A DNA stretch of 64,000 nucleotides. It comes from Novibacillus thermophilus (GTDB lineage: Bacteria > Bacillota > Bacilli > Thermoactinomycetales > Novibacillaceae). Location: positions 3,224,001 through 3,288,000 of the forward strand of contig NZ_CP019699.1 of NCBI RefSeq assembly GCF_002005165.1, written 5' to 3'. The translations under genes were made by a program, and so were the position numbers. The notes under the pieces were generated by a model, which searched no databases, was not told the DNA's origin, and saw only the letters and a program-made list of their open reading frames with translations. Position 1 is the first letter of the stretch, and each line of letters begins with the position of its first letter. This document shows, piece after piece, positions 28,812-55,357 of the stretch.

Positions 28812-28877
28812 GCAATCCCTCCATTCTCTTTAATCTCTCTTCTTAAATCTTCACCACCACCTTTCACTTATAGGCAT

Positions 28878-28912: not shown

Positions 28913-28929
28913 GGATGTGTTAATTTAGA

Positions 28930-29718
28930 TTAACCTATCGTAAACCCATCAAACATGCTTAATGCCTGAACAATAAGGGGATAAAACCACGAGATTACGG
29001 CCGCGCTGAACGGTACCATGAGTAACAACGTGTGGTAAACAGGCTTTTTAGTAGCGTTTTGTATCCGCTTATAGTGATTGGTCTGAGACACCTGTTCTTT
29101 GTAGTTTTCTAACATCACAATGGCATGTTCACTTCCTTGTGCCAGCTGAACGAGCAAACCAGATAGTAATTGCAACTGAATCACATCGCTTTTTTCCAGC
29201 CTTATGATAGCTTCAATGGACCTTTTGGGTTGTGCCATGCGTCCAAAACAGGTTTCATTTGCCTATAAATCGGTTGAGATACATGGATGGAATCCCTCAA
29301 CGCTTGTTCCATAGTACTGCCTGATTTCACAAGACTAATAAAGGCATCTAAAAAGATTGGCAATTCAAAGGCAAGTTTTCTTCTTCCTTTTTGGATAGAT
29401 GAATCAAAATCCGCTTTAAAAAGGTCGCAGAAAAGAAAAATGCGGCAAATATTAAGTAGCCGGTCATCCACTCCCCCGTAAGAAAGAAATATAACCCAAG
29501 TAATATTCCTGTATAAAACAGGCACTTTTCCACGATCACAACCGATTTGGAGTCACGGTAAAAGGCAACTCTAACTTTGCAAGAGCCTTTTCAAGTTTAG
29601 GATCAGATTTAATAGGGTTGTCTCGATTTTGTTCTTGAACCCGGTTAGCAATTGATAAACACCATACCCAAAAACAGGCTCCAACCCCTAAGGAAACTGC
29701 TGCTGTCAGCACGTTCAT
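28930..29718 (-). pseudogene. second tadC copy, several frameshifts
   Basis: Fragments in order are MNVLTAAVSLGVGACFWVW (29718 on), a helix pair YFFLTGEWMTGYLIFAAFFF (near 29.45 kb), the T2SSF part FELPIFLDAFISLVKSGSTM (near 29.33 kb) and the C-terminal part VSQTNHYKRIQ with the last helix (to 28930). Together they cover a TadC of about 260 residues like the intact copy near 5.5 kb. At least three shifts are needed. Its upstream end overlaps the tadB copy. Confidence 0.6.
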
Positions 29719-30559
29719 TCCACCTCTTTTCTATCCAAATAATAAAGATCGCTAAACTCACCAAGAGAAGAACGGCTACAACCGTCACGATACTGCGTCC
29801 CAGCGGTTCAGTGGTAACAAACCCATAATTCCCTGGCAGATTGTAAAGAAACAGCCCCATCGCCGATATCATGAGGATCAAATGAATCATGCGCGTTTGC
29901 GCCATCTCCGCTTTTTCCCGCTGTGTTTCAATTTGGCTCGTTTTCATCTGTTTCACTAAATTAAACAGACCATCCTCGATGTCTGCTCCCCGTTCTTCCC
30001 TGAGTAACAAAAGATTCACAAACTGTCTTGCCCACCGGTTATTTACACGTCGCCCTAAACCCTTCCAGTACTTCATGCACCCGATACCCCGTATACATCT
30101 CTCTTGCGATTCGCGCAAACTCCGATTTGATCGGTTCCGGCAGTTGTTTTGACGCATGATCAAAACTCCTGGCCAGATTTTTTACCGCCACATATTCGGC
30201 ACTAAACACTTCAATGCTGACGATAAACTATCCATCATATTCATACGGTAACGTGTGGCTTTGTAAGCGATAAAGAAAGTTGGAAGATACCCAAACAGAA
30301 TACACAGCAACATACCGACAAAGACATTCTTTAATCCATATCCACCGATTGCGCCGGCCACCACGCCAATAGCGGTATAAAAGAGCCATCTGTCTGCAGT
30401 TATAGAGAGGCCTGCGGCGTCGATAATTGAGCAATCGGCCGAAACCATTTCGGTGCTTTTTTTACATGTTGCTTTGGTTCGTGCATTCTTCCTGTTCATG
30501 AACATATAGGATACTGAGAAAATCAAAACAAAAAGCAGGACTGGAACAGCAACATTCAA
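29645..30559 (-). pseudogene. second tadB copy, frameshifted
   Basis: The first frame from 30559 has a membrane anchor, a helix pair (WLFYTAIGVVAGAIGGYG, LCILFGYLPTFFIAY) and YRMNMMDSLSSAL. A second frame (FSAEYVAVKNLARSFDHA, REMYTGYRVHEVLEGF) and a third frame (RERGADIEDGLFNLVKQM, then C-terminal helices) complete a TadB. The junctions near 30.20 and 30.06 kb are single-base changes at GG/GGG runs. It is the partner of the tadC copy downstream. Confidence 0.6.
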
Positions 30560-30588
30560 TAAAAAAACTCTACTCCTCCTTCCTTGCC

Positions 30589-31820
30589 TTAAGCTAACTT
30601 AAAAGTGTCCTCGGGCGGATCAAACAGGTTGAGTTTAGCCTGCAGTAGATCAGATATCGCGTTTGGCATTTCCCATGTGTCACCCGTAAACCGGCACAAA
30701 TCACGAAACTGCACGTTGTTGTCCGTCTCCGTGCAATGGACTTCGGTTATGCGCCATACCCTGCGAATTCCTGTTCCCGGTTCCACATGAAGCTGTATGA
30801 CCACATCGACGGATCGCGCAACACGAAGATACAAGTGGCTGGAATCCCAGCTGCGACCGTCTTCCATAATCATGTCTACCAGATCCTGTATGGACGCTTC
30901 CGGTGAATTAGAATGGATTGTCCCCATCGAACCTGGATGTCCGCGGCGGAATGTTTTAACTAATTGATCGGCCTCTGCTCCCCGTGCTTCCCCTAAAATG
31001 ACAATATCCGGCGACAGGCGCAACATGGTATGAAATTGGTTGAGTAACGTCCTGTCAAGGTGTTTTTGTTCTTCAAAACGTAATGATGTTCCTCCCTTTT
31101 AATATTGATCTAACGCTAATTCATAGGTACTTTCCAATACCCCAATGCGTAAATTAGGGTCAATAAATTGGGTCAACCAACGCAATAAACTCGTTTTTCC
31201 TGATGACGTTGGCCCGATGAGAAGAATATTCGCCCGTCCTCTCACCAGTTGCGCAAGGAGATCTACCACTTCTTGGTTCAACGTGCCATAATACAATAAT
31301 TTTTCCGTCGTCAATCCTTTTATCCGGTGTTTGCGAATAGTAATGGTGGGATGTGGTGTTTCATCCCGGGCGCGTCAGGGTAATGCGTGATCCATCTGCC
31401 ATCTTGGCTTCTACTACCGGGTGGAACGGTTAATTTCTTTGTTCTCGTTCGACAATAGCCTTGCCTGTATTTCCATAACTTCATCGTCATGTTGGAACAT
31501 GACGCCATGTGCTTTTACCCGTCGCCCTTCCCTTTCAACCCATACATTTTCTCCTGCACCGTTGACCCATATTTCGTTGACTTCCGGATCGTCATACAGG
31601 TGTTGAATCTGTCCTAACCCCCAAATGACATTAAAAATATCCTGTATCAAGTCATTCGTTGCATTAATCCGCATGTCGTACAATTGCTCACGCACTAATG
31701 TCTTGGTCTCGGCGACGGCTTTTTATCCCCTGCACGAGCTAAACGAAACAAATCATTATTGTCCGTGTTTTGAATGATCCGTTCTTTGACACGTTCAGCA
31801 AGTTGAGAAACGCCTTCCAT
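30589..31820 (-). pseudogene. second TadA/CpaF ATPase, in at least four frames
   Basis: The ATG at 31820 (MEGVSQLAERVKER) starts a CpaF-like protein. Parts follow in shifted frames: LYDDPEVNEIWVNGAGENVW (N-domain), GPTSSGKTSLLRW (Walker A, near 31.2 kb), then DIVILGEARGAEADQ (Walker B) and RGHPGSMGTIHSNSPEA (His box) near 30.97 kb. All catalytic motifs can be read, so decay or error is recent. One shift is a lost A in the AAAAA run near 31.73 kb. Compare the intact copy at 6911-8281. Confidence 0.65.
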
Positions 31821-32394
31821 CAATGGACATCCTCACCTTTCACTACTAAAAAAAGCGGAGCTTGTGCTCGCGCTGTTTCCAGTGCCTCTATCTCTTTTTG
31901 GTGAACCTGTAAGGTCACCCCTACATCCGATCCCAATTCAATCGGTTCTTCCTTCCGATGATTGAATAGACTGTGGATTCTGTTACGAGAGCAGCCGGTC
32001 TCTCCTCTGTTGCCTGAACCCACACTTCAACATTCATTCCCGGTTCAATTACAGGACCATTAGCCGTTGTGTATGTAGCATCGACTGTGTAAAGCCTTGT
32101 GTTTTCATCGGTTATTTCAGTGACTAACTCTGGTATTATAAACTCCCCTGCTTTAATATCCTTTTTTGCTGATTTCCCTAATAATTCAGCAGGATCAAGT
32201 GCTTGAACTGCCTCCCCCATAACAGCCACTTGATTGAGGTGGTGGTCTTCTATCGTTTCCCCAGCTGATATATCTTTCGCGGCAACGACGATTCGCACAT
32301 CGCTCTCTTGAGAAGCCTGAACATAATAGGCGTATCCTCCTGCTACGACCACGGCCATCAGGAATGATAAAACGATTTTCACAGTTTTCCCCAC
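31820..32394 (-). pseudogene. second CpaB-like gene, one frameshift
   Basis: Starts at a GTG at 32394 behind GGAGGACTTACTT. A membrane anchor is followed by a SAF domain (RIVVAAKDISAGETIEDHHL) and the RcpC part (LYTVDATYTTANGPVIEPGM). Near 31.96 kb one A appears lost, after which the other frame continues RKEEPIELGSDVGVTLQVHQ to a stop overlapping the ATG of the tadA copy. It is the first gene of the second Tad locus. Confidence 0.65.
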
Positions 32395-32419
32395 AAGTAA
32401 GTCCTCCTTTAAAAATTTT

Positions 32420-32853
32420 TCATATCCAAGAAAACCATTCTGAAAGATACGTGTTCCATACAAAAACCAAAGCTACGGCCGCTAATCCAATCCGTGTGAT
32501 TAAATCAACCACAACATAGAGGGCATACGGCATTTTTACACCGATTTTTAATTCGTAAGGAAAGAAAAATTGTACTCTTCCGACGAACATGTCGAGCAAA
32601 ATATGTGAAGAGAATCCTGTTAAAATGGCTAATGTGACCCACCTTCCCATATAAGGGCACAAATGGTCAGTAACAAAACCGGTATCCATGAGTGAAAAAG
32701 AGTGCGATGCCCTACGATATGCCGCAATGGCCATGATATAAAGAAAAATACCCTGCCCGCAAAGCTGCGATTATCGTCAATATCCGGCAGGAGACCCGCT
32801 ACACCTCCTATCACAGCACCAGTGATGGAAGGGTAGACGGTGTAGCCTACCAC
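32420..32853 (-). pseudogene. YdjM-like membrane-bound metal-dependent hydrolase, frameshifted
   Basis: The first frame from 32853 has GAVIGGVAGLLPDIDDNRS and VGHRTLFHSW, the Asp and His metal ligands of the YdjM/DUF457 family. After a one-base loss in a GG run near 32.65 kb, the second frame gives LAILTGFSSHILLDMFVG, with the later His/Asp pair, and C-terminal membrane helices. Together they make a normal protein of about 145 residues. The family is poorly understood. It is just upstream of the second Tad locus. Confidence 0.65.
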
Positions 32854-32966
32854 TACCCTCCTAAAAAGTGTGTAGATGCTTTCATGCCAGATATTTCACT
32901 CCAATACTCTTCTATTAATAACAAAATATGGGATAAGCCGCCACCAAAGCCGGCCTTATCCGTCTT

Positions 32967-40677: not shown

Positions 40678-40983
40678 TTAAATTGCTTTGTCAAAGTATG
40701 ATGTATTTTTTTCGACCCATTGAGTGTGTTCTTCAATCCATTTCATTAGCAAATGAGTAGGAACTTTTGGATGACCAAATTCTCGTGTTACTGGAAAATC
40801 CTGACGATTAAGCAATTCACTGGCCTTGTTCGCTTTTATACCGAGAAATTCCATTAATTGATTTCGGGAAAGCAGCGGAGGCCATTTCGTATAGTTCTGC
40901 TTTTTTGATTCCCATTTTTCAAGTTCTTCTTGGAGAACCTTACGGAACTGTTCATTATCAAAGTCAATGTCAACTTTAATCAA
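40678..40983 (-). CDS. DUF771-like excisionase-type protein
   Basis: About 101 residues from a TTG at 40983 behind AAGGAGGTCTTATT. After an acidic start, WPPLLSRNQLMEFLGIKANKASELLNRQDFP looks like a MerR/excisionase-type HTH, and FGHPKVPTHLLMKWIEEHTQW matches the end of DUF771 family proteins in Firmicutes phages and ICEs. In ICEBs1 the excisionase gene is in the same place, divergent from immR. It may act with the integrase in excision. Confidence 0.65.
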   Translation of the reverse strand: MIKVDIDFDNEQFRKVLQEELEKWESKKQNYTKWPPLLSRNQLMEFLGIKANKASELLNRQDFPVTREFGHPKVPTHLLMKWIEEHTQWVEKNTSYFDKAI

Positions 40984-41021
40984 AATAAGACCTCCTTCAT
41001 GCATTCTTTAATTTTTTATTT

Positions 41022-41411: not shown

Positions 41412-41783
41412 ATGTCTTCGGTTGTAGGAAATAGAATAAAATTAAGAAGAAATATAAAAGGTTGGTCACAAAGGGAGTTAGCTCGAAGAGTTGGGCTCAA
41501 TTATAGTGTTATGAATAGAATTGAATCTGGCAAAAGACCTGTGGGAGATACTGAACTTAGAAAGATTGCGGAGGTACTGGATGTCTCAACCGATTACCTT
41601 CTCGGTCGGACAGACGATCCTATCCCTGATAAAGCAGAAAAAACATTTGAAGAATGGATAAACGATCCAGAAACAGTCATTTTTTTTAAGGATTACCTAA
41701 AGGCTCCTGAAGAACGCAAAGAGGAATTAAGGCGGTTTTGGGAGTTTATGAAGGAACAGGAAAATCAAAAAAGGAAAAAATAG
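41412..41783 (+). CDS. ImmR-like XRE repressor
   Basis: A protein of 123 residues. The N-terminal HTH (GNRIKLRRNIKGWSQRELARRV, then GLNYSVMNRIESGKRPVGD and DVSTDYLLGRTD) is of the SinR/ImmR kind; the C-terminal part is acidic and helical for dimer formation. It is followed by a gene for a metalloprotease, the usual ImmR-ImmA pair, in which DNA damage or cell signals lead the protease to cut the repressor and start excision. Confidence 0.8.
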   Translation: MSSVVGNRIKLRRNIKGWSQRELARRVGLNYSVMNRIESGKRPVGDTELRKIAEVLDVSTDYLLGRTDDPIPDKAEKTFEEWINDPETVIFFKDYLKAPEERKEELRRFWEFMKEQENQKRKK

Positions 41784-41859: not shown

Positions 41860-41898
41860 TAAACAGAACACATGTTTGGTCAGGAGGTTGTAAATTCA

Positions 41899-42420
41899 AT
41901 GGATGTTAGTAAACCCAAATCATTAGCCCATTCTATTGAGTACCTTTATGATCACCTAAACATTACCCATCCTTCGGAACTGGATATGTTTTATATTGCT
42001 GAAAAGTTTTCGCTAAATATTCACTTATTCCCTATACAAAGCCGTACATTTAAAAAAGATAGTGTCTATTATATCATTATTGATAGCCGATACCCTCAAA
42101 AACAGTGGCAAGATTTTGGACATGAGATAGCACACATTTTTTTACATGGATGGTTACCCGAAATTATAAATTACGGAGGGAACCAGTTGTTTTTGACTAA
42201 CCAATTTATTCAGTATCAAGAGATAAAAGCGGATTTATTTTCTTACGAGTTCTGCATTCCCACATTCATGCTAAGAAAGATGGAGATCCCCAATCATGTG
42301 CAAAGGGCCGCTAGTTATATCGCTGAACAGTTTTGTGTTACGAATGAATTTGCATACAAGCGTTTAAACCGTTTAAAGCAGAATATGATAAAATCTAATA
42401 TTGCAAATATTATGGGATAG
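41899..42420 (+). CDS. ImmA/IrrE-type metalloprotease
   Basis: About 173 residues from the ATG at 41899 behind AGGAGGTTGTAAATTCA. The zinc motif is FGHEIAHIFLHGW (HExxH), followed by EIKADLFSYEFCIPTFML with the third ligand Glu. This is the ImmA/IrrE COG2856 fold. It should cut the ImmR-like repressor encoded upstream. It ends 11 bases before the integrase gene. Confidence 0.85.
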   Translation: MDVSKPKSLAHSIEYLYDHLNITHPSELDMFYIAEKFSLNIHLFPIQSRTFKKDSVYYIIIDSRYPQKQWQDFGHEIAHIFLHGWLPEIINYGGNQLFLTNQFIQYQEIKADLFSYEFCIPTFMLRKMEIPNHVQRAASYIAEQFCVTNEFAYKRLNRLKQNMIKSNIANIMG

Positions 42421-42699
42421 GAGGAAATTATTTGAGAGGTCACATTCGCAAGCGGGGAAACAAATGGTGTTTTGTGTTGGATGTCGGGATTGACGAAGAG
42501 ACCGGAAAACGAAAGCAGAAATGGTTTTCGGGGTATCGCACAAGTAAAGAAGCTGAACGCGCGATGATTGCAACAATTAAAGAGATTAACGAAGGTACTT
42601 TTATCGAACCATCAAAGGAGAAACTCGGCGATTACATGATTAAATGGTTAAATGAACGAAAAGACAGTTTACGCGAAACCACTTATACGAATTACAGAC

Positions 42700-42704
42700 A
42701 TTAT
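42700..42704. repeat. 5-bp target duplication ATTAT, left copy (right copy 44289-44293)
   Basis: ATTAT directly precedes the left inverted repeat and directly follows the right inverted repeat of the IS1380-family insertion. Removing one copy restores the integrase frame exactly. Confidence 0.8.
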
Positions 42705-44288
42705 CCTGAATTTCGAAAGTAAAGTTGCTTGATCCAGTAATAAAGGTGCTCCAATCCTTGGTATAATGGTGTTTGAACGAACAACAAAACCCAAAGAGAG
42801 GGGCACCCGTTAGGTGAAGTCTACCACAAACATCGCCAAAATGAAAACAGAATTCACGCTAAAGAATGCAACCTCACACGCAGGGAGTAAACCCTTGCTT
42901 GCGTACCTTGAAAAAATCAAACTGGAAGACGCTTTTCGTCAGATAGGTTGCGGGAAAGGCCGGAATACGCTTTTTCCGTTCTTCAAGATCTTGATGTACC
43001 TTTTAGTCGGATGGCTACTGGGTTGCGAACGTATATTCCATTTCCGCTCATTGCGAGACGATTCGCTGGTACGTCGATTTTTAGGTGGACGTTGTCCCCA
43101 TCACACTCTTTTGTATAAAGAACTGTGCCGCGCTGCTGTCTCCATGCCCACGATCCGTCGGGACTTGAAGGCATTAAACCTTGATCTCATCACTCCCTGC
43201 CTATCCGACGAATGCATTCTCGACCTCGATTCCACCGTTGAGACGGTGTACGGGAATCAGGAAGGGGCCGAAGTTGGGACAAACGCTCAAAAGCCCGGAC
43301 GTAAAAGCTTCCAACCACTCATCGCCTTTGAAGGAAAGTCCCGTCTTTACCTTAATGCCGAACTGCGTTCAGGCAATACGCATTGTTCCCGCAATGCCCA
43401 TACTTTCGCGAAGGAAACCCTTCAACGTCTTCCTAAATCGTGTAAAGTCAAGTATGCCCGATTCGACAAAGGATTCGGCGGCGAAACCTTCTATAGTTTT
43501 TGGGAAGGCAAACAGATCGGCTACGTTGGCAAACTCAAATGGACGCATCGGTTAGCCAAAGAAGTCGCCAAATGTCCTCATTGGAAACGCTATGTGGACG
43601 GAGACGTCATCATCGAAGGCCTTTGTTTAGTGTACAAAGCCACTTCTTGGAAAAAGGCTCGAATGGTGGTCGTCATCAGGAAAGCCGAACGCTACGATGG
43701 TGATCAACTCCAATTCGACTTTCTTTGGGATTACGAAGCAATCGTGACCAATTTGGATTGGGAGCCCATCGACATTTGGCGTTTTTACAATCAGCGCGCG
43801 TGCATGGAGAACTACATCAAAGAAGTGAAGCACGGCTTTTCGATTCACCGTATTCCGACAGATTCGTTTAAAGCCAATGAAATCGATCTGTTGCTGAAGC
43901 TGTTGGCCTACAATGTATTCGAGCGTTTTAAGATGGACTGCTGTGAACCGGTTCATCGCCGCTATACCATTGCACGATTTCGTAAGGAGTTTTTCCATGT
44001 CCCTGGTACGATCATCTATCGCAGTCGCCAAGTCATTCTAAAAATCGCGGCAGCCTTCCAAAATGAGTACAGTTGGCGGCGCATGGAAGAACGGGTGGTT
44101 CTCCTACAATAATGCCTATCCAAACTTTTACATGGAAATAACCGAGCCCGCTTGTGTGGGGAGGGGGAAAGTGTATCCCAAGAACAAGAAACCCCATCGA
44201 AAGGACAAGTTTAGTTTCCACTTTTACTGTTTGTTTCCATGTGGGTAATGCTAGAAATAGCTGATGTTATCCACATTCGAAATTCGGG
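42705..44288 (+). mobile_element. IS1380-family insertion sequence, 1584 bp
   Basis: The left end CCTGAATTTCGAAAGT and the right end, read inward, CCCGAATTTCGAATGT form imperfect inverted repeats of about 16 bp. The ATTAT target duplication flanks the element and one long transposase gene fills it. It disrupts the ICE integrase after codon 91. Confidence 0.9.
42814..44112 (+). CDS. IS1380-family DDE transposase
   Basis: A protein of 432 residues starting at a GTG. The family hallmark CILDLDSTVETVYGNQEGA holds the first catalytic Asp, with later RFDKGFGGETFYSF and the C-terminal NQRACMENYIKEVKHGF carrying the last acidic residue (Glu). Length is normal for IS1380 transposases. The frame is intact, so the element may still be active. 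Confidence 0.9.
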   Translation: MKSTTNIAKMKTEFTLKNATSHAGSKPLLAYLEKIKLEDAFRQIGCGKGRNTLFPFFKILMYLLVGWLLGCERIFHFRSLRDDSLVRRFLGGRCPHHTLLYKELCRAAVSMPTIRRDLKALNLDLITPCLSDECILDLDSTVETVYGNQEGAEVGTNAQKPGRKSFQPLIAFEGKSRLYLNAELRSGNTHCSRNAHTFAKETLQRLPKSCKVKYARFDKGFGGETFYSFWEGKQIGYVGKLKWTHRLAKEVAKCPHWKRYVDGDVIIEGLCLVYKATSWKKARMVVVIRKAERYDGDQLQFDFLWDYEAIVTNLDWEPIDIWRFYNQRACMENYIKEVKHGFSIHRIPTDSFKANEIDLLLKLLAYNVFERFKMDCCEPVHRRYTIARFRKEFFHVPGTIIYRSRQVILKIAAAFQNEYSWRRMEERVVLLQ

Positions 44289-45177
44289 ATTATATTAATT
44301 CATATATCAATCCTGGATTGGGACATCATCGACTTGATCGACTTAACACCGACCATTTAAAGAGATTTTATAATCAAATGGGCAAAAAATATTCAAGATC
44401 TACCGTCGCCAGCTTACATCGTGTCATAAAAGCCGCTCTAAACCGTGCACCAATCAAACAAAACCCCGCAAAATTAGTCAATCCTCCTAAAATCCCTAAA
44501 CCAAAAATGCGCGTATGGTCGGAAGATGAAGTAACCCAATTTTTGGAGGTTGCAAAATCTAACCGGTTGTACATTGCATTTTTACTTGCTCTAACCACAG
44601 GTATGAGACGCGGGGAGATACTTGGATTATCATGGGAAAATATTGACTTTAAAAACCGAACAATATATGTTGAGCAATCTTTAACAATGTTGGGCGAAAT
44701 ACAAGAACTTAAGTCCGATTCAGCTCGTCGTCCCATATCACTGCCGAAAACAACGGTTGATGAACTAAGAAAGCACAAACTTACTTTGCAACATGAAAAA
44801 TCTATAGCAGGACCTTCTTATGAAGATAGTGGCTTAGTTGTATGTACAAGGTATGGAACAAAAGTATTGCCGCGCAATTTAAATCGTACATGGTATAAAC
44901 TACGGGATAAAGCAGGTGTTACATCGATCCGATTTCATGATCTTCGCCACACACATGCTACACTAATGCTCAAACAAGGAATACACCCAAAAATTGTAAG
45001 CGAACGATTAGGACACTCAAGTATCCGTGTTACATTAGATACCTATTCCCACGTCGTACCCGGATTACAAAAAGCAGCAGCTGATCAATTTGGAAAGATG
45101 TTGTTCGGAAGATAAAAAAATCGCCTTAGCATACTAAAGGTTTGCAAAATGTTTGCAAGTGAGCCTTTCATAATAAA

Positions 45178-45211
45178 ACGGCGCGGTTTCTTGAAATCGA
45201 TAAACCGCGCC
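45178..45211 (+). terminator. intrinsic terminator after the integrase
   Basis: Stem GGCGCGGTTT/AAACCGCGCC (45180-45210), followed a few bases on by TTTTTT. The same stem with a different loop occurs at 55.23-55.26 kb beside the decayed integrase copy. Confidence 0.7.
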
Positions 45212-45228
45212 ATATCAATGTTTTTTAG

Positions 45229-45271
45229 TGGTGCTGACGGAGGGATTCGAACCCCCGACCCCTTCATTACG
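45229..45271. other. attachment site: 43-bp copy of the tRNA-Thr 3' half
   Basis: The 43 bases from TGGTGCTGACGG to CCTTCATTACG are identical to 55282-55324, the 3' half of the intact tRNA-Thr(CGT) from the CCA end to the anticodon. The preceding context (terminator hairpin and GTTTTTT) is also shared. It is the right end of the ICE next to its integrase gene. Confidence 0.9.
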
Positions 45272-45397
45272 CCCGAAGTGGTACAGCACCTTCGCCCGAG
45301 GTTGCCCTGTTTCGGGATGACGCTCATTATGTGCCAATTGCACATACTTCGTCACCGATCCGTTTTTATTTTTACGGGAGATTGTTCGAATATACAT
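45272..45397 (-). pseudogene. IS1634-family transposase, N-terminal fragment cut at the att site
   Basis: An ATG at 45397 starts YIRTISRKNKNGSVTKYVQL, then HNERHPETGQPRAKVLYHFGR, the N-terminus of IS1634-family transposases. After about 42 codons the frame runs into the tRNA-derived att sequence and the rest of the gene (normally over 500 codons) is missing. The break coincides with the att core, so site-specific recombination or a deletion ending there removed it. Confidence 0.7.
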
Positions 45398-45657
45398 GTC
45401 TACATTATACAACATGTACTACAATATTCAAACTAAAACATATACTTATTTATCCACAATTTATAAGATATAAATAGTCAAAATAACACCGAGTTATCCA
45501 CATTATTTTAGTGCCTACGGGTTTTGGATCAAAATCAGCATGTGATACCTGTGCAAAAGATCGTGAAACCGTTGGTATATAAGGATTCTTACTTATCCAC
45601 AGATGATAATTTAGTACTTATTTTTGGCTACAACTGTCGAACCCGGGATTAAATTAA

Positions 45658-47046
45658 AGTTATGTCCTTAAAATTGTGTAAAATAGGTTTCTAAATAATA
45701 AGAGCCAATTTCAAAATCCTCGGTTAGAATGGAGTTGTCGGAAAATACCATTCTGGAGAGGAGAATTTTGAAATGGCTCAATACCAGATTACCGTAGATC
45801 AAGAACTTTTGCAGCAACTTTTTTTAGGACATTCTCAAGATGCTGGTGTGTCTAAGCTTCTGGAATCTGTATTAAACCAAATTCTCCAAGCGCAGGTGAC
45901 GGAACAGTTGGGAGCTGAACGCTATGAACGTACAGATTCCCGTCAAGGCTACCGCAATGGGGCCTATCCTCATCAGTTAACCACTCGGGTGGGAACCATT
46001 ACGTTACGTGTTCCTCGGATACGAAATGGTCAGTTTTCTACTGAATTGTTTGCCCGTTACCAACGGAGTGAGCAGGCTTTAGTATTAGCCTTGATGGAGA
46101 TGGTCATAAACGGGGTTTCTACACGCAAAGTCTCCCAGATTACCGAAGAGCTTTGTGGTACCCATTTCTCTAAATCAACGGTTTCCGAACTGTGTAAGCA
46201 GTTAGATCCCATCGTCGAAGCCTGGAATGGGCGCCCGCTTTCCGACAGCCCGTTTCCGTTTGTGCTGGTGGATGCCTTGTATCTGAAAGTACGGGAGGAC
46301 GGTCGCGTCCGATCCCGGGGAGTGATGGTGGGCATCGGTGTCAACACTGACGGTTATCGAGAAGTCCTTGGTCTCATGACTGGTGATACGGAGTCGGAAG
46401 CCGATTGGCGTGAATTCTTTGGTTGGCTCAAACAACGTGGCCTGCGTGGTGTGGATTTCATCACGTCTGATGACCATGGCGGTCTCGTGCGTGCGATTCG
46501 CCAGCATTTCCAGGGGGTCACCTGGCAACGATGCCAAGCCCATTTTATACGCAATATACTGGATGCGACTCCCAAAGTCCTGAAGGATGAGGTATACAGC
46601 CGTGTGCGTACGCTTTTAGATGCTCCTGATCTTGAGACGGCTAGGTTGTTGCTTTCTCAAACCTTGGAAGCTTATGAAGAAAAAGCGCCCAGAGCCATGC
46701 GCATCCTGGAGGCCGGGTTTGACGATGCGACGGCTGTTCTATCCCTTCCGGAAAGGTATCGCAAGCGTCTGCGTACCACTAACAGCATAGAACGATTGAA
46801 TGAAGAGATTCGCAGACGGGAACGAGTGATCCGGATATTCCCAAATCGTCAGTCCGTCATTCGATTGCTTGGTGCTTTGCTCATGGAACAGGATGAAAAA
46901 TGGGCCAGTGGACGAAAATATCTCAACATGGAGGAATACTGGTCCTGGTATAAAAACAATCCCAAAAAGCAAAACGCTAGCGTAACAAGGATCATGTGAC
47001 AACTTCTCTAACCGAGGAATTTTTACACACAATTTTGGACTTGATC
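45658..47046 (+). mobile_element. IS256-family insertion sequence
   Basis: Inverted ends share AAAATTGTG and CCTCGGTTAGA. Flanking bases TTAAATTAA occur at 45649-45657 and 47047-47055 and fit the 8-9 bp target duplication of IS256. One intact transposase gene is inside. The exact ends are my estimate from the inverted repeats. Confidence 0.8.
45773..46999 (+). CDS. IS256-family (mutator type) transposase
   Basis: A protein of 408 residues. Typical segments are SRQGYRNGAYPHQLTTRVG and TITLRVPRIRNGQF, the first catalytic Asp in FVLVDALYLKVREDG, the second in VDFITSDDHGGLVRA, and the end RTTNSIERLNEEIRRRERV with the last Glu. The frame and length are normal, so it may be active. Confidence 0.92.
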   Translation: MAQYQITVDQELLQQLFLGHSQDAGVSKLLESVLNQILQAQVTEQLGAERYERTDSRQGYRNGAYPHQLTTRVGTITLRVPRIRNGQFSTELFARYQRSEQALVLALMEMVINGVSTRKVSQITEELCGTHFSKSTVSELCKQLDPIVEAWNGRPLSDSPFPFVLVDALYLKVREDGRVRSRGVMVGIGVNTDGYREVLGLMTGDTESEADWREFFGWLKQRGLRGVDFITSDDHGGLVRAIRQHFQGVTWQRCQAHFIRNILDATPKVLKDEVYSRVRTLLDAPDLETARLLLSQTLEAYEEKAPRAMRILEAGFDDATAVLSLPERYRKRLRTTNSIERLNEEIRRRERVIRIFPNRQSVIRLLGALLMEQDEKWASGRKYLNMEEYWSWYKNNPKKQNASVTRIM

Positions 47047-47055
47047 TTAAATTAA

Positions 47056-47482
47056 TGCCTTATACTACAAGGGATTGGAAGCCTAAAAAAGGACTTCACC
47101 CCTGCTTGGAGAATTCTTCAAGTGACCAAACAATCTAAAACCCAAGAGGAGAAGTCACTTTGTATATTCATTCTCCAATAAAGTCTGTTTTCCTTCGAAA
47201 TTGTTTGTAGAACAGGCTCCTTATTCCACTTACGGGCTCTTTGCCGATCACTTTTATCACTGTTACAGGTTATGTGCCAGGTAAGTGGTTACCAAGCCCA
47301 AAATCCCATAAGAGAGGGAAGGAAAAGGAAAAACAGGTAGAAAATCAATACCCCATTTCATCTTAAAATTAAAAGGTATCCAGGGAGTCTGTTATTTTCC
47401 CCATATACCTTAATTCGAGAATGGAAAACCCTGACTGGTCTAATGGATGTCCATCCATACCGATCATGGATCTACGATTCCT
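47056..47482. other. gap without an intact gene
   Basis: No frame over 60 codons with a ribosome site is present. A short frame beginning YIHSPIKSVF after AAGAGGAGAAGTCAC is stopped within about 15 codons and may be the start of a decayed transposase. I see nothing else that I can support. Confidence 0.35.
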
Positions 47483-48055
47483 TTAAGAGACAAGGAAGTC
47501 CATTCCATGGGTAACATAGGGTAAAGCAAATTTAATATATTCTTCCGGCGGCATCGTGCAATTGTCTTGACAATCCATAGAAGCCCCGTAAATGCCCCAA
47601 CTTAACATAACAGCGGCAACTCGTAGAGAATGGTCACTGACATTAGACCCTTGCTTTAATAACATCTGGTAAAAAATATCTTTAAGTTCTTTCATGATAA
47701 TGGCTTCAATGGTTGTTCTAAATGCCTCGAAGCTTCTTGGGCAATTCTTTTGCAAAGATTTTTGGAAGTTCGTTACAGATAAGAAAATACTGACAATGGT
47801 TTCTTGGTTAAGTTCATCATGCTTAGCGATTTCATTGGTTACACTGAGCATCAAATCTTCCTTTAACACCCTTTCCATTAGGTCATATTTATCCGTGAAA
47901 TGATAATAAAATGTCGCTCGATTGACTGTTGCTTCCGACGTAATATCTTTGATCGTAATATCTTTAAACTCTTTTTTCCCTGAAAGTTTAATAAATGCAT
48001 CCATGATTAACTTACGAGTACGCAGAATACGAGGATCTGTTTTCACTTGAGGCAT
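47483..48055 (-). CDS. TetR/AcrR-family regulator
   Basis: About 190 residues from the ATG at 48055 behind GAAGGGAGACC. The N-terminal HTH reads RTRKLIMDAFIKLSGKKEFK, DITIKDITSEATVNRATFYYHFTDKYDLM. The ligand domain behind it is of the AcrR/FrrA type. The upstream open frame is non-coding leader. The gene is divergent from the yceI-like gene, about 275 bases apart, so it may control that gene and the flavin enzymes after it. Confidence 0.85.
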   Translation of the reverse strand: MPQVKTDPRILRTRKLIMDAFIKLSGKKEFKDITIKDITSEATVNRATFYYHFTDKYDLMERVLKEDLMLSVTNEIAKHDELNQETIVSIFLSVTNFQKSLQKNCPRSFEAFRTTIEAIIMKELKDIFYQMLLKQGSNVSDHSLRVAAVMLSWGIYGASMDCQDNCTMPPEEYIKFALPYVTHGMDFLVS

Positions 48056-48331
48056 GAAAGGGTCTCCCTTCAATTTTTTAGACATTTTAATAAAATTGTT
48101 GTTTATACGATAAAAAGCAAAAAGTATTGGTTGAGCCAATTTCATACGAATCCTATAATAAATTTTACAACATATGTTGGAAAAACAAAAGGTGTTAAAA
48201 ATAAACGTTTGGAGGGATTGGAACAAGTCATGTGGTTCCTGCATTCGAATGGAACACTTTAAAAGAGCCCTCTGAAATTTTTTTGAGGTGGATCCAGCAT
48301 ATGGGAAAAATGATGGAGGGAGAAATTTATC

Positions 48332-48865
48332 ATGACAAAAACAAAATGGACGGTCGATACGGCACACAGTAGTCTGGACTTCTCAGTGAAACATATGATG
48401 GTTTCAAAAACAAAAGGTACGTTTCATAACTTCGAATCAACAATTGAAGCGGATCCTGACGATTTAACGACTGCAAATATTGAATTCGTCATCGATGTGG
48501 CAAGTGTTGATACTCGAAATGAGGGACGGGACAATCATCTGCGTTCTGAAGATTTCTTTGATGTGGAACAGCATCCGAAAATGACGTTCAAAGCAACCAA
48601 TATAGAAAGAACAGGTGAGGATGAGTATAAAGTGACCGACGACCTGACGATTTGTGGCATAACCAACTCCGAAACGTTCTCCGTGACATCGGAAGGACAA
48701 AGGAAAGACCCTTGGGGCAATGAAGTGGCCGGATTTAGTGGAGAAGGGAAAATCAACCGTAGTGATTACGGGTTGACATATAATGCCGTATTGGAAACAG
48801 GCGGCGTCGTTGTAGGAGACGAAGTTAAAATATCGATTGAAATTGAAGCGCAAAAAGCCACTTGA
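48332..48865 (+). CDS. YceI-family lipid-binding-like protein
   Basis: A protein of 177 residues after GGAGGGAGAAATTTATC. Typical YceI pattern: WTVDTAHSSLDFSVKHMMVSK, TFHNFESTIEADPDD, then LRSEDFFDVEQHPKMTF and the last strands VVGDEVKISIEIEA. Family proteins are lipocalin-like barrels that bind isoprenoids. No signal peptide is seen, so it should be cytoplasmic. It lies between the TetR gene and the flavin oxidoreductase genes. Confidence 0.88.
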   Translation: MTKTKWTVDTAHSSLDFSVKHMMVSKTKGTFHNFESTIEADPDDLTTANIEFVIDVASVDTRNEGRDNHLRSEDFFDVEQHPKMTFKATNIERTGEDEYKVTDDLTICGITNSETFSVTSEGQRKDPWGNEVAGFSGEGKINRSDYGLTYNAVLETGGVVVGDEVKISIEIEAQKAT

Positions 48866-49071
48866 ACACGTTAGGAGATGCGGAGAAATAATCTTAACGA
48901 CAGCGTTGTTGAGTGCAACTGACCATCAGTGGGGGACGAGAAAACCCCACTGATGGAGGTTTTACTTTACGTCGGTTGATTGGATAGTTGATATCCGGGG
49001 TAAAATCTTGGTTCTCTGTTATGTAAACCTACAGGGATTATGAATATAAATTGGAAGGAGCGGAAGAACAG

Positions 49072-50145
49072 ATGGAAAAATATCGTATTGATGAAAGTAA
49101 AGGATTGGAGTTTGGTGTGTTTTCACTGGGAGATCACTTGCCAAATCCTTTAACGGGAAAAAGGGTTTCGGCAGAACAGCGCATACACGAATTCATTGAA
49201 TTTGCAAAACTCGCTGAGCAGGCAGGTATTGATTTTTTTGGCATAGGAGAAAGTCATCAGAAGTACTTTGTCGCACAAGCACACGCTGTTGTTCTTGCGG
49301 CTGTTGCCCAGGCGACAGAAAAAATAAAACTCGGAAGTACTTCCACAATTATTAGTACATCGGACCCCGTGCGTGTATATGAGAACTTCGCGACGATTGA
49401 TTTGATTTCGAAGGGCCGCGCAGAAATTGTGGCAGGGCGGGCCTCAAGAGTCGGGCTCTACGATTTATTGGGCTACGATCTTCGTGATTATGAAGAATTA
49501 TACGAAGAAAAGTTTGATCTGTTATTAAAGATTAATGAAGAAAAAAAGGTGAATTGGCATGGACAATTTCGTGCCCCATTAAAAAATGCGGAAGTTCTTC
49601 CTCGTCCCAAAAACGATTGGATGCCGATTTGGCGTGCAGTTGGTGGGACACCGGCGAGTGCCATTAAGGCGGGGCTTGCCGGTGTGCCGGCGTATTTTGC
49701 CGGTCTGGCTGGCCCCGCTTCGGGTGTAAAACAAAGGATAGATGCCTATCGGGAAGCTGCACGAAGCAACGGTTTTGATCCTTCGAACTTACCCGTAGCA
49801 ATGGCAGGCCATTTATATGTAGCTGAAACAACACAACAGGCATTAAAAGAATATTGGCCTCTCTTCAGTGAAGGGACTAAGCGAACGAACGGTCTGACCT
49901 TTCCAAAGCAAGTTTTTGCCCAGGCGGCTCATCCTCATAATGTTTTGAATATCGGAAGCCCTCAGGAAATCATTGAAAGAATCCTTTACCATCATGAACT
50001 ATTTGGCCATCAGCGTTATATCGCGCAAATCGACTTTGGGGGGATGCCTTTTGATAAAGCCATGAATAACATTGAGCTGATTGGCACGGAAATCATGCCC
50101 GCCGTCAAGAAATATACAGCCAAAAGGAAGGAGGAAGTGAAATGA
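49072..50145 (+). CDS. LLM-class flavin-dependent oxidoreductase
   Basis: About 357 residues from the ATG at 49072 behind GGAAGGAGCGGAAGAAC. The luciferase-like TIM barrel is clear (LEFGVFSLGDHLPNPLTG, FIEFAKLAEQAGIDFFGIGE, KIKLGSTSTIISTSDPVRVY, GRAEIVAGRASR). It resembles the alkanal monooxygenase-like group of Firmicutes; the substrate cannot be told. Its stop overlaps the ATG of the flavin reductase gene (ATGA), a typical two-component pair. Confidence 0.88.
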   Translation: MEKYRIDESKGLEFGVFSLGDHLPNPLTGKRVSAEQRIHEFIEFAKLAEQAGIDFFGIGESHQKYFVAQAHAVVLAAVAQATEKIKLGSTSTIISTSDPVRVYENFATIDLISKGRAEIVAGRASRVGLYDLLGYDLRDYEELYEEKFDLLLKINEEKKVNWHGQFRAPLKNAEVLPRPKNDWMPIWRAVGGTPASAIKAGLAGVPAYFAGLAGPASGVKQRIDAYREAARSNGFDPSNLPVAMAGHLYVAETTQQALKEYWPLFSEGTKRTNGLTFPKQVFAQAAHPHNVLNIGSPQEIIERILYHHELFGHQRYIAQIDFGGMPFDKAMNNIELIGTEIMPAVKKYTAKRKEEVK

Positions 50146-50876
50146 AGATTGTTGGGTTATCTGGTTCAAGTGTCGGTACGAAAACAAGAACGGCTATGGA
50201 CTACACCATAAAAACCGTCAAGAAAAACTACCCCGACACTGAAGTGACATTGATTGATTTAGCAGAATACGATGTTCAATTTAGTGACGGACGTGACTAT
50301 TGGGAATACGAAGGAGATACTGCATATGTGGCACGAACAGTCATGGAAGCCGATGCCATCATTATTGGAACGCCTATTTTTCAGGCGTCTATCCCAGCCA
50401 CATTGAAGAATATATTTGATTTACTTCCCGTCAATGCCTTTCGTGATAAAGTGGTCAGTATGCTTGTAACGGCAGGTTCACCCAAGCATTACTTAATTGC
50501 AGAACAGCAACTAAAGCCGATCTTATCTTATATGAAGGCACAAGTGGTTCAGGCCTATGTGTTTATCGAAGAAAAGGATTTTTATAGAAAAGAAATTACG
50601 AATGATGATGTGATTTTCCGAATCGAACGTTTGGTTGAGGATACAGTTATATTAACAGAAACCTATACGAAAATTCGTGAAGAAAAAGGTAGCATACGGC
50701 TTTTAGCAGAATCCATCAAACCTACCGTTATCATCCACGGGATAGGTTCTTTGGTGACTTGGTTCGTTTGGTCAACCCATCTACGTCAAGGAGCCTATCC
50801 TTATTTCAATCCTGAAAAGGCTGGAACAAAAGGACTGTTTCCTTATCATCCTTTTTCAGTTTCTTTTTTAAAGTGA
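50142..50876 (+). CDS. NADPH-dependent FMN reductase
   Basis: A protein of 244 residues. The flavodoxin-like domain (residues 1-180) has VGLSGSSVGTKTRTAMDYTI as the FMN phosphate loop, ADAIIIGTPIFQASIPATLKN and VSMLVTAGSPKHYL. It should give reduced FMN to the neighbouring LLM enzyme, with which it overlaps by four bases. The last 60 residues (VIIHGIGSLVTWFVWST, FNPEKAGTKGLFPYHPF) are not part of the usual domain and may be a frameshifted or joined tail. Confidence 0.85.
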   Translation: MKIVGLSGSSVGTKTRTAMDYTIKTVKKNYPDTEVTLIDLAEYDVQFSDGRDYWEYEGDTAYVARTVMEADAIIIGTPIFQASIPATLKNIFDLLPVNAFRDKVVSMLVTAGSPKHYLIAEQQLKPILSYMKAQVVQAYVFIEEKDFYRKEITNDDVIFRIERLVEDTVILTETYTKIREEKGSIRLLAESIKPTVIIHGIGSLVTWFVWSTHLRQGAYPYFNPEKAGTKGLFPYHPFSVSFLK

Positions 50877-51347
50877 TTAACTCACTTTCGGATACGACCG
50901 AGCAAGGTTGTGTAACAATTTAGCAGGTGGAACCCCTGCTTGGTAAGACTTTAGCCAAGTCGACAATAGCGAGTCTTGGATCTCCAAGAGTAATTTTGTA
51001 GATTAGCGTAGATAGTCAGTTTTAGTAGGATTGAATGTGATTGAGCCTCGAAATGACTAATAATTTAGCTTGTATACAGGTATCTTTTCAACACTCGGAA
51101 AGGTGGTTTAAGTGGTAGAACAACAGATGGTGGTTGATTTACAAATAATAACGAGTATTCGGCGAAGCAAGTGTGGGAATTATTAACAAACGAAGATGAT
51201 GTAAATAAGTGACATCCGAGGTAAGAGTGCCGAAAATAACTAGCCACGGATCGCGGTTTTGCATCCCCCTGACAATAGTATATTATCTATTTCATGATGG
51301 TAGATGACGGCCCAGGTGAATGAGCAGGCGTTAAATAATATTGTAAT
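50877..51347. other. gap without a supported gene
   Basis: Only short frames are present and none has a ribosome site. No hairpin terminator was seen after the flavin reductase gene. The sequence is AT-rich and looks like decayed insertion material, but I cannot assign it. Confidence 0.35.
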
Positions 51348-52276
51348 TCACCTTAGAGCGTTAAGTGCAACCTTGGCAGCCTTCGCAATCAGCGTATCGT
51401 CATATTTGGCATTCTTCGTATCATAGCGGGACATAATCGCAATGACGATTGGTTCTCTGTTTGGTGGCCAAACAACTGCAATGTCATTTCTCGTTCCGTA
51501 ACTTCCGGCCCCACTCTTATCACCGACCTCCCATCCTTCAGGTGCACCCGCACGATCAGTGTATCTCCTGTCGCATTGCCCTGCATCCAATTCGTGAACC
51601 GTTCACGCTCATCATTCGAAAGCAAGTCGTTGACTGCGAATGCCTGAAGATCGAAGGCAAGAGCTCTCGGTGTACTGGTGTCACGAGTATCTCCCGGTGT
51701 GAATTCATTCAAATCTGGTTCGTATCGGTCCGACTGGGTAACGTTATCGCCGATTTGCCTTAAGGCTTGTTCAAATCCATCAAGACCTCCTAGTGCCTTA
51801 AGTAAGAGGTTCCCTGCGGTGTTGTCACTGGACCGGACCGCGGCCTCACTTAGTTCCAAAAGTGTCATCCCGGTATTCACGTGTTTCTTGGTAATCGGAG
51901 AATAGGGAACCAAATCATCCTCGGTGTAAATGATGACTTCCTTAAGCTCTTCCATAGAATTCTGCCGCAGCACGATGGCAGCGGCCAAAGCCTTGTAGGT
52001 GGATGCAAAAGCGAAACGTTCCTCTGGTCGATATTCGACGGTCTGATTCGAGCCCGTATCGATCGCATAGACACCGAGCCGAGCATCAAACTCATTCTCG
52101 AGCTGGGCAAACTTTTCATCTGTATTTTCTGTTTGTCCCACTTCGTTCCCCTCTTTAGATGAGGAATCGGTTGAACTGTCTGCATCCGCGCAAGCGGCGA
52201 GTGTAATCAATGCGAGCAACGACATAAACAATGTAAACTTACGCATGCTGAATTTGGATTTGCATGTTTTTTTCAA
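51348..52276 (-). pseudogene. class A beta-lactamase, one frameshift
   Basis: A TTG at 52276 behind GAAAGAGGTTATCAA, or the ATG at 52246, starts a lipoprotein signal (LLALITLAAC). The class A set is readable: FASTYKAL (Ser70-x-x-Lys), RSSDNTAGN (Ser130-Asp-Asn), YEPDLNEF (Glu166) and, after a one-base loss near 51.56 kb (CCG to CG), the KSG motif [13 protein letters not shown] in the second frame, ending AKVALNALR. If the shift is real, the last third, with the KSG strand, is lost and the enzyme is inactive. No blaI or blaR genes lie nearby. Confidence 0.8.
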
Positions 52277-52309
52277 ATTGATAACCTCTTTCTGTTTTTG
52301 ATCTATCAA

Positions 52310-52646
52310 AAATTGAACTGGCCTCTTTTGGTCTTAAAAATGGTTAAGTCTGTACATGTTTGCCATTAAGAAGCTATCCAATAATTCCGCCGCCCTTTTG
52401 CTCTTCATACATTTTTATGCGTTCGACTAAACTTATATCCCCATGGATAAATCAGGGGCTTTACGGCTTGATTCGGTAATTAATTACATTTCTTGTTCCA
52501 TGCGGTCGATCACAGGGAGTGCAGAGGGCATCTCCCTTCCTTTTGAAAGATTGATTTAGCGCACAATATCAACGGAATATGTAGCAACTTTTTACTTCTG
52601 TTTCACAGTTTAAATGCACTTCGACCTGGTAGGAACGTTGAAGATA
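52310..52646. other. gap between beta-lactamase and ars genes
   Basis: There is no supported gene. It separates two divergent-in-function cargo blocks on the same strand. The sequence upstream of the beta-lactamase has no clear regulator site and I see no strong hairpin. Confidence 0.35.
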
Positions 52647-53066
52647 CTATTTCCCTTCTATAGCAAATTGCTTTATACGCTTCTCAATTTCATCGCGAAC
52701 TCGCCGGAAGACGGCCCACTTTTCCTCCTCTGTCCCTTCTGCTTTGGCCGGATCGTCAAATCCCCAGTGGTACCGTTTAACGTGAGGAGGTGTCGTCGGA
52801 CATGCGTCTTCGGCATCCCCGCAAAGGGTAATCACATAGTCTGCACGGTTCAAAAGCTCAGAATCAATTGTTTTTGATTTTTGATTGGAAATGTCAATCC
52901 CAACTTCTTTCATCACCTTGACAGCATTCGGGTTGACACCGTGCGCTTCGATGCCAGCTGAGTGAATGTCATACTTGTCCCCAAGATACTTACGGCCAAA
53001 TCCTTCGGCCATTTGACTACGGCAAGAATTCCCTGTGCACAAGAAGTAAATAATCGGTTTGGACAT
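52647..53066 (-). CDS. arsC: thioredoxin-coupled arsenate reductase
   Basis: About 139 residues from the ATG at 53066 behind AGGAGGGTATAGGC. The P-loop [13 protein letters not shown] holds the first Cys and Arg; the second and third Cys of the relay are in [12 protein letters not shown], so it belongs to the Staphylococcus pI258-type (LMW phosphatase-like) ArsC. It reduces arsenate to arsenite for export by ArsB. It is the third gene of arsR-arsB-arsC. Confidence 0.93.
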
Positions 53067-53157
53067 GCCTATACCCTCCTTTGGTTTATACTTCATATTG
53101 CACGAGCTGAGCGACTTTTTTTGTAAAATGACGTATGGGAAATGGTATCAATACTCT

Positions 53158-54453
53158 TTAAATGATCAACAACCACAGGTAGAGTCCGACAAGCGTCATG
53201 AACAATGTTGGGATCGTTAGTACAATACCGACTTTAAAATAGTACCCCCAAGAAATCTTAACACCTTTCGTTGCGAGTACGTGTAACCATAATAACGTCG
53301 CCAGTGATCCGATGGGCGTAATTTTCGGACCGAGGTCCGATCCGATGACATTGGCGTACACGAGCGCTTCCCGCATCAATCCTGACGTGTTTGTCTCCGC
53401 AATCGCAAGGGCGTCAATCATGACAGTGGGCATGTTGTTCATAATAGATGATAGGAAAGCGGCGATAAAGCCCATCGCGACTGTCCCGGCGAACAAACCA
53501 CCCTCTGCTGCAGCTTGTATCTCTTTTGCCAACAGAGCGGTTAACCCGACATTTTGCAACCCATAGACGACAACGTACATCCCGACAGAAAAGAATACAA
53601 TCGCCCAAGGCGCCCCCTTGATGACCTCGTTGGTCGGTACGGCAGGACTCCTTTTGGCCATAATCAAAAAGAAGACCGCAATAACGCCGGCGACAATAGA
53701 AACCGGGATGTCCAGAAGTTCGCCTCCGAAATATCCGATGAGCAGGATCGCCAGAACGAACCAGGACAAACGAAACATCCGATGGTCTTTGATTGCTTCC
53801 CCCGGCTCCTTTAGTTGCGATATCGCATAATGGCACGGAATGTTTTTACGAAAGTACACATACAAAACGAGCATACTGGCACCGAGTGCAAAAACGTTCG
53901 GTACAATCATACGGGACGCATATTCGGAAAAACCAATCCCGAAAAAATCCGCCGACACAATGTTAACCAAGTTGCTGACAACGAGAGGCAGAGAGGTAGT
54001 GTCGGCAATAAAGCCGCTGGCCATAATGAACGGCAATACCATCTCCTCCTTGAATTTCAAGTTCCGCACCATGGCGAGTACAATCGGAGTCAAGATCAAC
54101 GCCGCTCCGTCGTTGGCGAAGAAAGCCGCCACGACGGCCCCAAGTACGGTAATGTACACAAACATTTTAATCCCGTTGCCTTTCGCCACTCTGGCCATGT
54201 GCAAGGCAGCCCATTCAAAGAACCCAATCTCATCGAGAATGAGCGAAATAAGAATCACGGCGACAAACGTCAAGGTCGCATTCCACACAATGCCTGTTAC
54301 GGTCACTACATCGTGAAGATCAACCACACCGACAAGTAAGGCCAGGACCGCGCCGCCGCAGGCCGTCCAGCCGATTCCTAACCCTTTCGGCTGCCAAATA
54401 ACGAGGATCAATGTTGCGACAAATATAACGGATGCTAATAGTACAGTTGACAA
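53158..54453 (-). CDS. arsB: ArsB-type arsenite efflux permease
   Basis: About 431 residues from a TTG at 54453 behind GGAGGTCGTTAGA. Twelve or so membrane helices are present with the ion-transporter-superfamily segments [39 protein letters not shown] and [35 protein letters not shown], which are ArsB family signatures. It exports arsenite by the membrane potential. It starts 14 bases after arsR ends. Confidence 0.93.
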
Positions 54454-54467
54454 TCTAACGACCTCCA

Positions 54468-54812
54468 CTATTCACATATGACTCGTAATCCTTCTGCCTC
54501 CAATGCTTCCAGCTTTTCCTTTTGATCCGGTAGGTGATAGAGTATATCTTGTATGAGCGGATAGGTTTCATGTTCTTTGTTTAGCTTGTAAAAAATCCAT
54601 TGTCCTTTTCGGCGTTCTCTCACTAAACCTGCATCTCTTAATTTCCTAAGATGCTGGCTGATGGCAGGCTGGCTCATTTGAAAAATTTCTACGAACTCAC
54701 ACACACAACATTCATGGTCTTCCAGAAGTCCGATCATTGTGAGGCGCGTTTTATCGCCTAATAGCTTAAGAATGTTTACGGCTTTTTCAATATCTACAAC
54801 AGTATTTTCCAT
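54468..54812 (-). CDS. arsR: ArsR-family metalloregulator
   Basis: A protein of 114 residues with a winged helix ([34 protein letters not shown] and [14 protein letters not shown]) and the arsenite site ECCVCEF in the alpha-3 region. It is a repressor released by arsenite binding to the Cys. It is the first gene of the ars operon and sits behind a perfect 22-bp palindrome. Confidence 0.93.
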
Positions 54813-54844
54813 AACAAGAACCTCCCTTCACACTCCAACATCAG

Positions 54845-54866
54845 TATATAAGGATATCCTTATATA
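54845..54866. promoter_or_regulatory. ars operator, 22-bp palindrome
   Basis: The palindrome TATATAAGGAT/ATCCTTATATA is perfect and lies 33 bases upstream of the arsR start. It fits an ArsR operator, which would overlap the -10 region of the operon promoter. Confidence 0.8.
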
Positions 54867-54959
54867 TGCAACAAAGATATGTAGACATCGTCAGGAAAAT
54901 GCCCATAGAAAATCATGTGCCCATTTTCGACGACATCATCTAAATATACCCCCACTGCT

Positions 54960-55178
54960 ACATCTTTAACGATGTTGGGCGAAATTCAAGAACTGAAGTC
55001 TGATTCAGCCCGTCGCCCTATATCACTACCAAAAGCGACGGTTGATGAACTAAAAAAGCACAAAAGTATTTTGCAACATGAAAAATCTACGGCAGGAGCT
55101 TCTTACGAAGATAGTGGCTTAGTTGTATGTACACGGTACGGAACAAAAGTATTGCCGCGCAATCTAAATCGTACACTT
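54960..55178 (+). pseudogene. decayed second copy of the ICE integrase
   Basis: The frame SLTMLGEIQELKSDSARRPI to RYGTKVLPRNLNRT matches the middle of the first integrase (about residues 220-290), with several substitutions. Both ends are lost: the N-terminal part and the catalytic His/Arg/Tyr part. Directly after it the sequence joins the same downstream context as at 45.12 kb (TTAGCATACTAAAGG and the GGCGCGGTTT stem), so it is the right end of a second related element. Confidence 0.88.
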
Positions 55179-55281
55179 TAGCATACTAAAGGTTTGCAAA
55201 ATGTTTGCAAGTGAGCCTTTCATAATAAAATGGCGCGGTTTCCATAACTTTTGGAAACCGCGCCGTATCAACGTTTTTTGG

Positions 55282-55357
55282 TGGTGCTGACGGAGGGATT
55301 CGAACCCCCGACCCCTTCATTACGAGTGAAGTGCTCTGCCAGCTGAGCTACGTCAGC
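55282..55357 (-). tRNA. tRNA-Thr (anticodon CGT)
   Basis: Minus strand, 76 bases: acceptor GCTGACG/CGTCAGC, D-arm GCTC..GAGC, anticodon stem around CTCGTAA (anticodon CGT for ACG), T-arm with GTTCGAATCCC, and encoded ACCA. It is intact and serves as the integration target: its 3' half is repeated as the att site at 45229-45271. Confidence 0.93.

Follow-up and report, generated by a model that had tools for sequence, protein, structure and literature searches.

Two ICEs with a common transfer module, one cut by an IS1380-family element in its integrase gene, and a probable 1.7-Mb assembly inversion in Novibacillus thermophilus

Introduction

Mobile elements commonly end up with an IS inserted in their integrase gene. 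Elements of the IS1380 family have short imperfect inverted ends and leave target duplications of 4-5 bp. In ICEBs1 of Bacillus subtilis, immR, immA and int form an arrangement that is divergent from the transfer genes.

Published cases offer partial parallels to the locus described here. In Streptococcus suis, an IME has its integrase gene interrupted by a small inserted element. The interrupted gene encodes a serine integrase, the inserted element carries erm(B) and is not an IS1380 element, and the IME was called likely defective by the authors (PMC7168690). For SXT/R391 ICEs, recombination between co-resident ICEs is reported to exchange modules and form hybrid ICEs; both partners share one integration site (PMC2786100), whereas the ICEs described here occupy two sites and encode two integrase types.

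The window, the whole 64,000-nt stretch of DNA that was analysed, covers positions 3224001-3288000 of the N. thermophilus chromosome, a single contig of 3,629,225 bp. Our preferred reading, to which we give a probability of about three in four, is that an IS-cut ICE at tRNA-Thr and a second ICE in comM have a transfer module in common, and that the 1.7 Mb between the two module copies is flipped in the record, most likely by an assembly error. Unless marked as chromosomal or given in Mb, coordinates of two to five digits are those of the window and longer ones those of the chromosome.

The interrupted integrase

The integrase gene is present in two pieces on either side of the insertion.

42432-42704, + strand: upstream integrase piece, 91 codons, with the arm-binding domain and the start of the core-binding domain
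42700-42704: left copy of the target-site duplication ATTAT
42705-44288, + strand: 1,584-bp insertion sequence of the IS1380 family, bounded by imperfect inverted ends of 16 bp
42814-44112, + strand: IS1380 transposase, 432 aa, full-length match
44289-44293: right copy of ATTAT
44289-45115, + strand: downstream integrase piece, with the remaining core-binding domain and the entire tyrosine-recombinase catalytic domain

The first-pass annotation had described an IS1380-family element with 16-bp ends and an ATTAT duplication that cuts an integrase. The coordinates confirm this, as do the ends, which agree at 14 of 16 positions, and the transposase, which scores 264.5 bits against the NCBIfam IS1380 model NF033539 (cut-off 180) and also matches PF13701. 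With this transposase, imperfect ends and 5-bp duplications, the element has the features of its family and shows no notable difference from known IS1380 elements. Taken alone, its insertion into an integrase is ordinary.

The insertion had been placed after codon 91, with 364 residues expected once the IS and one ATTAT are discounted, and the coordinates agree. By position, 273 nt (91 codons) of integrase precede the IS, and by coordinate arithmetic on unjoined flanks, 2,684 - 1,589 nt leaves 1,095 nt, or 364 codons and a stop. The two pieces also align adjacently (within 8 residues) on intact relatives at 10 of 11 loci, these 11 being the loci fetched from 27 match rows outside the element's own genome; the single locus lacking an adjacent pair has a stop codon. 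Named relatives of the integrase came from 13 loci, with a best identity of 33%, and among more distant proteins an adjacent pair was found at E<1e-3 in one locus only. On phrog_1, the pieces meet at position 191. Every catalytic residue had been claimed to survive, and this too was borne out: alignment to solved integrases places what we take to be the signature residues (R, K, H-x-x-R, H and Y) in the downstream piece, which matches Pfam Phage_integrase.

Judged from the gene's structure, the IS very probably abolishes the ICE's own integration and excision. The ICE could still be mobile if the downstream frame or another cellular recombinase excised it. An in-frame ATG at 44264, within the IS, opens a frame of 283 aa ahead of the complete catalytic domain, and the genome encodes one full-length, distant tyrosine recombinase elsewhere (32% identity). 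Continued mobility is nevertheless highly improbable: the downstream frame is severed from the arm-binding domain, a scan of the right end of the IS found no promoter-like site, promoter-like sites did not exceed shuffles (8 found versus 11.2 expected), and the sole close relative of the integrase elsewhere in the genome is a remnant at 54960-55229.

Regulatory genes and attachment sites

Next to the integrase lie the following regulatory genes.

40678-41004, - strand: small HTH protein, labelled 'xis-like'; phrog_668 'HTH DNA binding protein'
41412-41783, + strand: ImmR-like HTH repressor gene (HTH_3)
41872-42420, + strand: ImmA-like metalloprotease gene (Peptidase_M78)

An HTH repressor and an M78 protease next to int make up a gene set of the ICEBs1 type, and the likeness extends to their layout, in line with int and divergent from the transfer genes. 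The difference lies in the transfer module, which is of another type, with Tad-type genes and Replic_Relax. Within the annotated immR/immA/xis-like module, the ImmR- and ImmA-like genes are complete; the 'xis-like' protein is only a putative excisionase, giving a weak, below-cut-off HTH match (20.3 bits versus 27).

Downstream of the integrase, the attachment region comprises four features.

45126-45228: att arm on the side of the integrase, carrying TTTGCAAAATGTTTGCAA as well as a tRNA-terminator-like hairpin
45229-45271: right att core of 43 nt, a perfect match to the 3' end of tRNA-Thr
54960-55229, + strand: related integrase remnant, 76% aa identity, with two stops nearby
55282-55357, - strand: intact tRNA-Thr(CGT), the 3' 43 nt of which are the att core

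The integrase-side arm is ~90% identical to the arm at 55178-55281. Across chromosomal positions 3186000-3288000, the only perfect core besides the right-hand one is that within the tRNA gene. A further perfect core lies at 1605724 in the opposite orientation, followed by a different arm carrying TTTGCAAAAATGTTTGCA. Only at this site, 1.6057 Mb, does the other arm accompany a perfect core and, as assembled, the att cores of the tRNA-Thr ICE are inverted and 1.66 Mb apart.

A degraded core at chromosomal positions 3190152-3190238 has a tRNA-terminator-like arm and sits beside a transposase fragment; it was considered as an ICE end and set aside as unsupported, the core being damaged. Between the two att cores of the window, the 10-kb stretch 45272-55281 holds an IS256 element, the integrase remnant, genes for a class A beta-lactamase (51389-52309) and arsB (53158-54468), and luciferase-like and FMN-reductase genes. 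It is probably an older island at the same tRNA-Thr.

A transfer module common to two ICEs

The left part of the window, up to the regulatory genes, divides as follows.

1-11634, - strand: left flank with Tad-type pilus genes and a ParM-like gene, part of the comM ICE in the re-inverted order
11635-40451, - strand: transfer module common to the second ICE, 98.5% identical to an inverted copy at chromosomal positions 1476364-1505185
24337-32855: central part of the repeat, to which all 28 indels are confined (22 with bases lacking in the window copy, 6 in the other copy)

A complete serine integrase lying within comM marks the start of the second ICE; ImmA- and ImmR-like genes come next. In the record comM is split between 1.47 Mb (+ strand) and 3.197 Mb (- strand, the C-part), and both parts match a single Pfam model, at its positions 1-162 and 157-206. 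That the missing half of the tRNA-Thr ICE had merely moved to 1.5 Mb was considered and dropped, the locus there being a second related element with the same backbone. Outside the repeat, the alignable parts of the two ICE loci are ~65-71% alike. VirB4 occurs in two copies in this genome and in none of 41 other genomes of the order (E 1e-80).

Within the repeat, window positions 15151-39990 differ from the other copy by 3 substitutions and 28 indels in 24.8 kb. In the central patch the indels fall mostly in short homopolymers, accompanied by one substitution, and open frames are fragmented in the window (longest 439 codons versus 752 in the 1.48-Mb copy). These frame breaks are probably sequence errors rather than decay, to judge from the pattern of differences. 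The indel patch starts ~9 kb from the unique sequence on one side of the repeat and ~7 kb from that on the opposite side, as expected if reads were anchored only that far and the centre was left unpolished. Because the indels are all central and the frames longer in the other copy, assembly error is favoured.

The same stretch bears on the idea that the ICE of the window is old and decayed, with its left end already lost and the IS a late and irrelevant arrival. The fragmented frames at 24-33 kb would fit such a history, as would the integrase remnant next door and the lack of a left att site in 3186000-3288000 other than the degraded core. Yet the fragmentation coincides with the indel patch and gives way to longer frames in the other copy, and at 1605724 the other arm retains a perfect core, which leaves decay a quite improbable account.

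Near window positions 13-15 kb, identical stretches enclose a divergent patch in which mismatches reach 32% per 500 bp, so both copies of the repeat exist on that side. The patch suggests mosaic exchange between the two ICEs.

The order of the chromosome

If the ~1.7 Mb separating the repeat copies is flipped, the tRNA-type cores stand in direct orientation at a distance of ~134 kb, and both parts of comM come to lie on one strand, ~73 kb from each other. A single inversion of ~1.7 Mb with breakpoints inside the shared repeat thus makes comM whole again, along with the two ICEs of 134 and 73 kb. IS256 copies were considered as inversion points and rejected: none like those adjacent to the window occur at 1445-1476 kb, and the shared module explains the breaks.

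The replication arms point the same way. On the origin side, dnaA lies at 3628213. GC skew is positive in all 18 sampled 12-kb stretches within 1-2892000 and negative in both of those beyond. Among 13 further stretches of 8 kb, the three up to 2.948 Mb are positive, the two at 2.955-2.978 Mb near zero and the eight beyond negative; near-zero values also occur at 2224000, 3264001 and 3272001, in stretches sampled for other purposes. With the switch taken at 2.95 Mb and the terminus placed by GC skew alone, the arms stand at ~4.3:1 as assembled and 1.03:1 when re-inverted. Either order yields a single skew switch, so it is the length of the arms and not the sign of the skew that carries the argument. 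The B. subtilis-type dif pattern gave no match. Reasoning from arm balance has a precedent in Bacillus thuringiensis 4Q7, which is a different case (PMC8116677), and a narrow literature query on misassembly and skew returned no paper.

Alternatively, the assembled order may be real, recombination in the common module having recently inverted ~1.7 Mb and left the att sites of both ICEs far apart and opposed. Both ICEs would then be disabled, with or without working integrases. An inverted repeat of 24.8 kb with near-identical copies is ample substrate for such an event, and the genome is a single contig reported as 100% complete. Against it stand arms of ~4.3:1 and the 28 indels versus 3 substitutions, all central, which point to sequence left unresolved by reads. 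We consider a real inversion unlikely, although less so than decay, and the flip is likelier to be an artefact.

Under the preferred reading of an assembly error, the tRNA-Thr ICE (~134 kb), with metal-resistance cargo, a Tad- and VirB4-type transfer module and ImmR/ImmA-type control, has recently taken up an IS1380-family element in its tyrosine integrase gene. The second ICE (~73 kb) is integrated in comM via its serine integrase. Both carry the near-identical, inverted 25-kb transfer module, and the record flips the 1.7 Mb between its copies, most likely through an error inside an unspanned repeat. The window would then be a chimera, with its left part from the comM ICE, its middle common to both and its right part from the tRNA-Thr ICE. 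The insertion, the repeat, the inverted cores, the split comM and the uneven arms are observations, whereas loss of integrase function and an artefactual origin of the flip are inferences.

Two co-resident ICEs have thus probably led to a 1.7-Mb inversion in the assembly of a finished-looking chromosome, and ICE borders, cargo assignment and 'broken' genes taken from the record would therefore be partly wrong. If the inversion is real, a transfer module that two ICEs have in common despite their different integrases can rearrange a chromosome and put both out of action, one flip also unbalancing the replication arms. The serine integrase, if active with a directionality factor, would in that case invert a chromosome-scale segment instead of excising its ICE. 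It is unlikely, though conceivable, that in one cell two ICEs with unrelated integrases, a tyrosine enzyme for tRNA-Thr and a serine enzyme for comM, have recently homogenised their 25-kb module and that recombination there truly flips nearly half the chromosome.

The order of the chromosome also decides how far the IS can be said to trap the ICE, as the first-pass annotation had proposed for a recent insertion event. The cut integrase and the near-identical IS copies agree with that proposal; the ICE, however, is not whole at the assembled locus. With the chromosome ordered as assembled, even a working integrase would invert ~1.66 Mb and not excise the ICE, and the IS would therefore not be the trap. 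It is the trap if the assembled order is wrong, the likelier case; after re-inversion, no lesion other than the IS is seen in the recombination module of the tRNA-Thr ICE.

Backbone, cargo and relatives

The ICE carries a VirB4-like ATPase, a TraG P-loop protein, a T4CP and a Replic_Relax relaxase candidate; re-inversion assigns to the tRNA-Thr ICE the T4CP and relaxase candidate located at 1.517-1.521 Mb. Profiles and gene types set the transfer module apart from the ICEBs1/Tn916 type, as it has Tad-type genes and its VirB4 falls below all listed NCBIfam cut-offs. At 5174-10415 in the window, Tad-type pilus genes (CpaB-, TadZ-, secretion-ATPase- and T2SSF-like) adjoin VirB4 and Replic_Relax in an ICE of the Bacillota, and a literature search for ICEs with a Tad pilus in Firmicutes returned no paper.

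The nearest backbone seen is that of a 101-kb plasmid of Brevibacillus marinus SCSIO 07484 (NZ_CP034542.1), and the match at the window locus ends near 3218.3 kb. Gene order is the same (Replic_Relax, T4CP, ParM, CpaB, secretion ATPase, M23, VirB4, NusG-like, RecD-like), with identities of 52.6% for VirB4 and 51.7% for the RecD-like protein. Unlike the ICE, this element is recorded as a circular plasmid, typed as non-mobilizable in PLSDB, and the tyrosine integrase that it encodes resembles that of the window only locally. Two further backbone proteins, tested singly, were located at 1.53 Mb.

From the cargo at 1.538-1.600 Mb, 11 larger proteins outside the backbone and other than transposases were picked. 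They comprise four P-type metal ATPases, three multicopper oxidases, two sensor kinases, one mercuric-reductase-like flavoprotein and one CcmF-type protein. In the re-inverted order, this metal-resistance cargo is that of the tRNA-Thr ICE.

Copies of the insertion sequence

Across the order, the IS was found in one of 42 genomes, its own, and in none of the other 41, with up to 8 candidates scored per genome; the plasmid collection gave no match. The whole genome holds eight near-full and three partial matches. Seven of the eight near-full copies have their own 5-bp duplication. Compared with the window copy, four of the other seven are identical, two differ by one nucleotide and one has a 4-nt deletion; the other six that bear duplications are 0-1 nt from it. 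Multiple near-identical copies, seven of them with a 5-bp duplication of their own, exclude a chance origin of the pattern. The integrase-borne copy is part of a recent burst, recent being meant in relative terms only.

The copy without a duplication, at 1602517 (locus 1602359-1604101), abuts a partial inverted copy. Its locus sits 1.6 kb from the att core at 1605724 and, in the re-inverted order, shares both ICE and orientation with the integrase-borne copy. At 2716891-2726745, a full inverted IS1380 copy lies between two partial pieces, an arrangement that suggests nested insertion or rearrangement.
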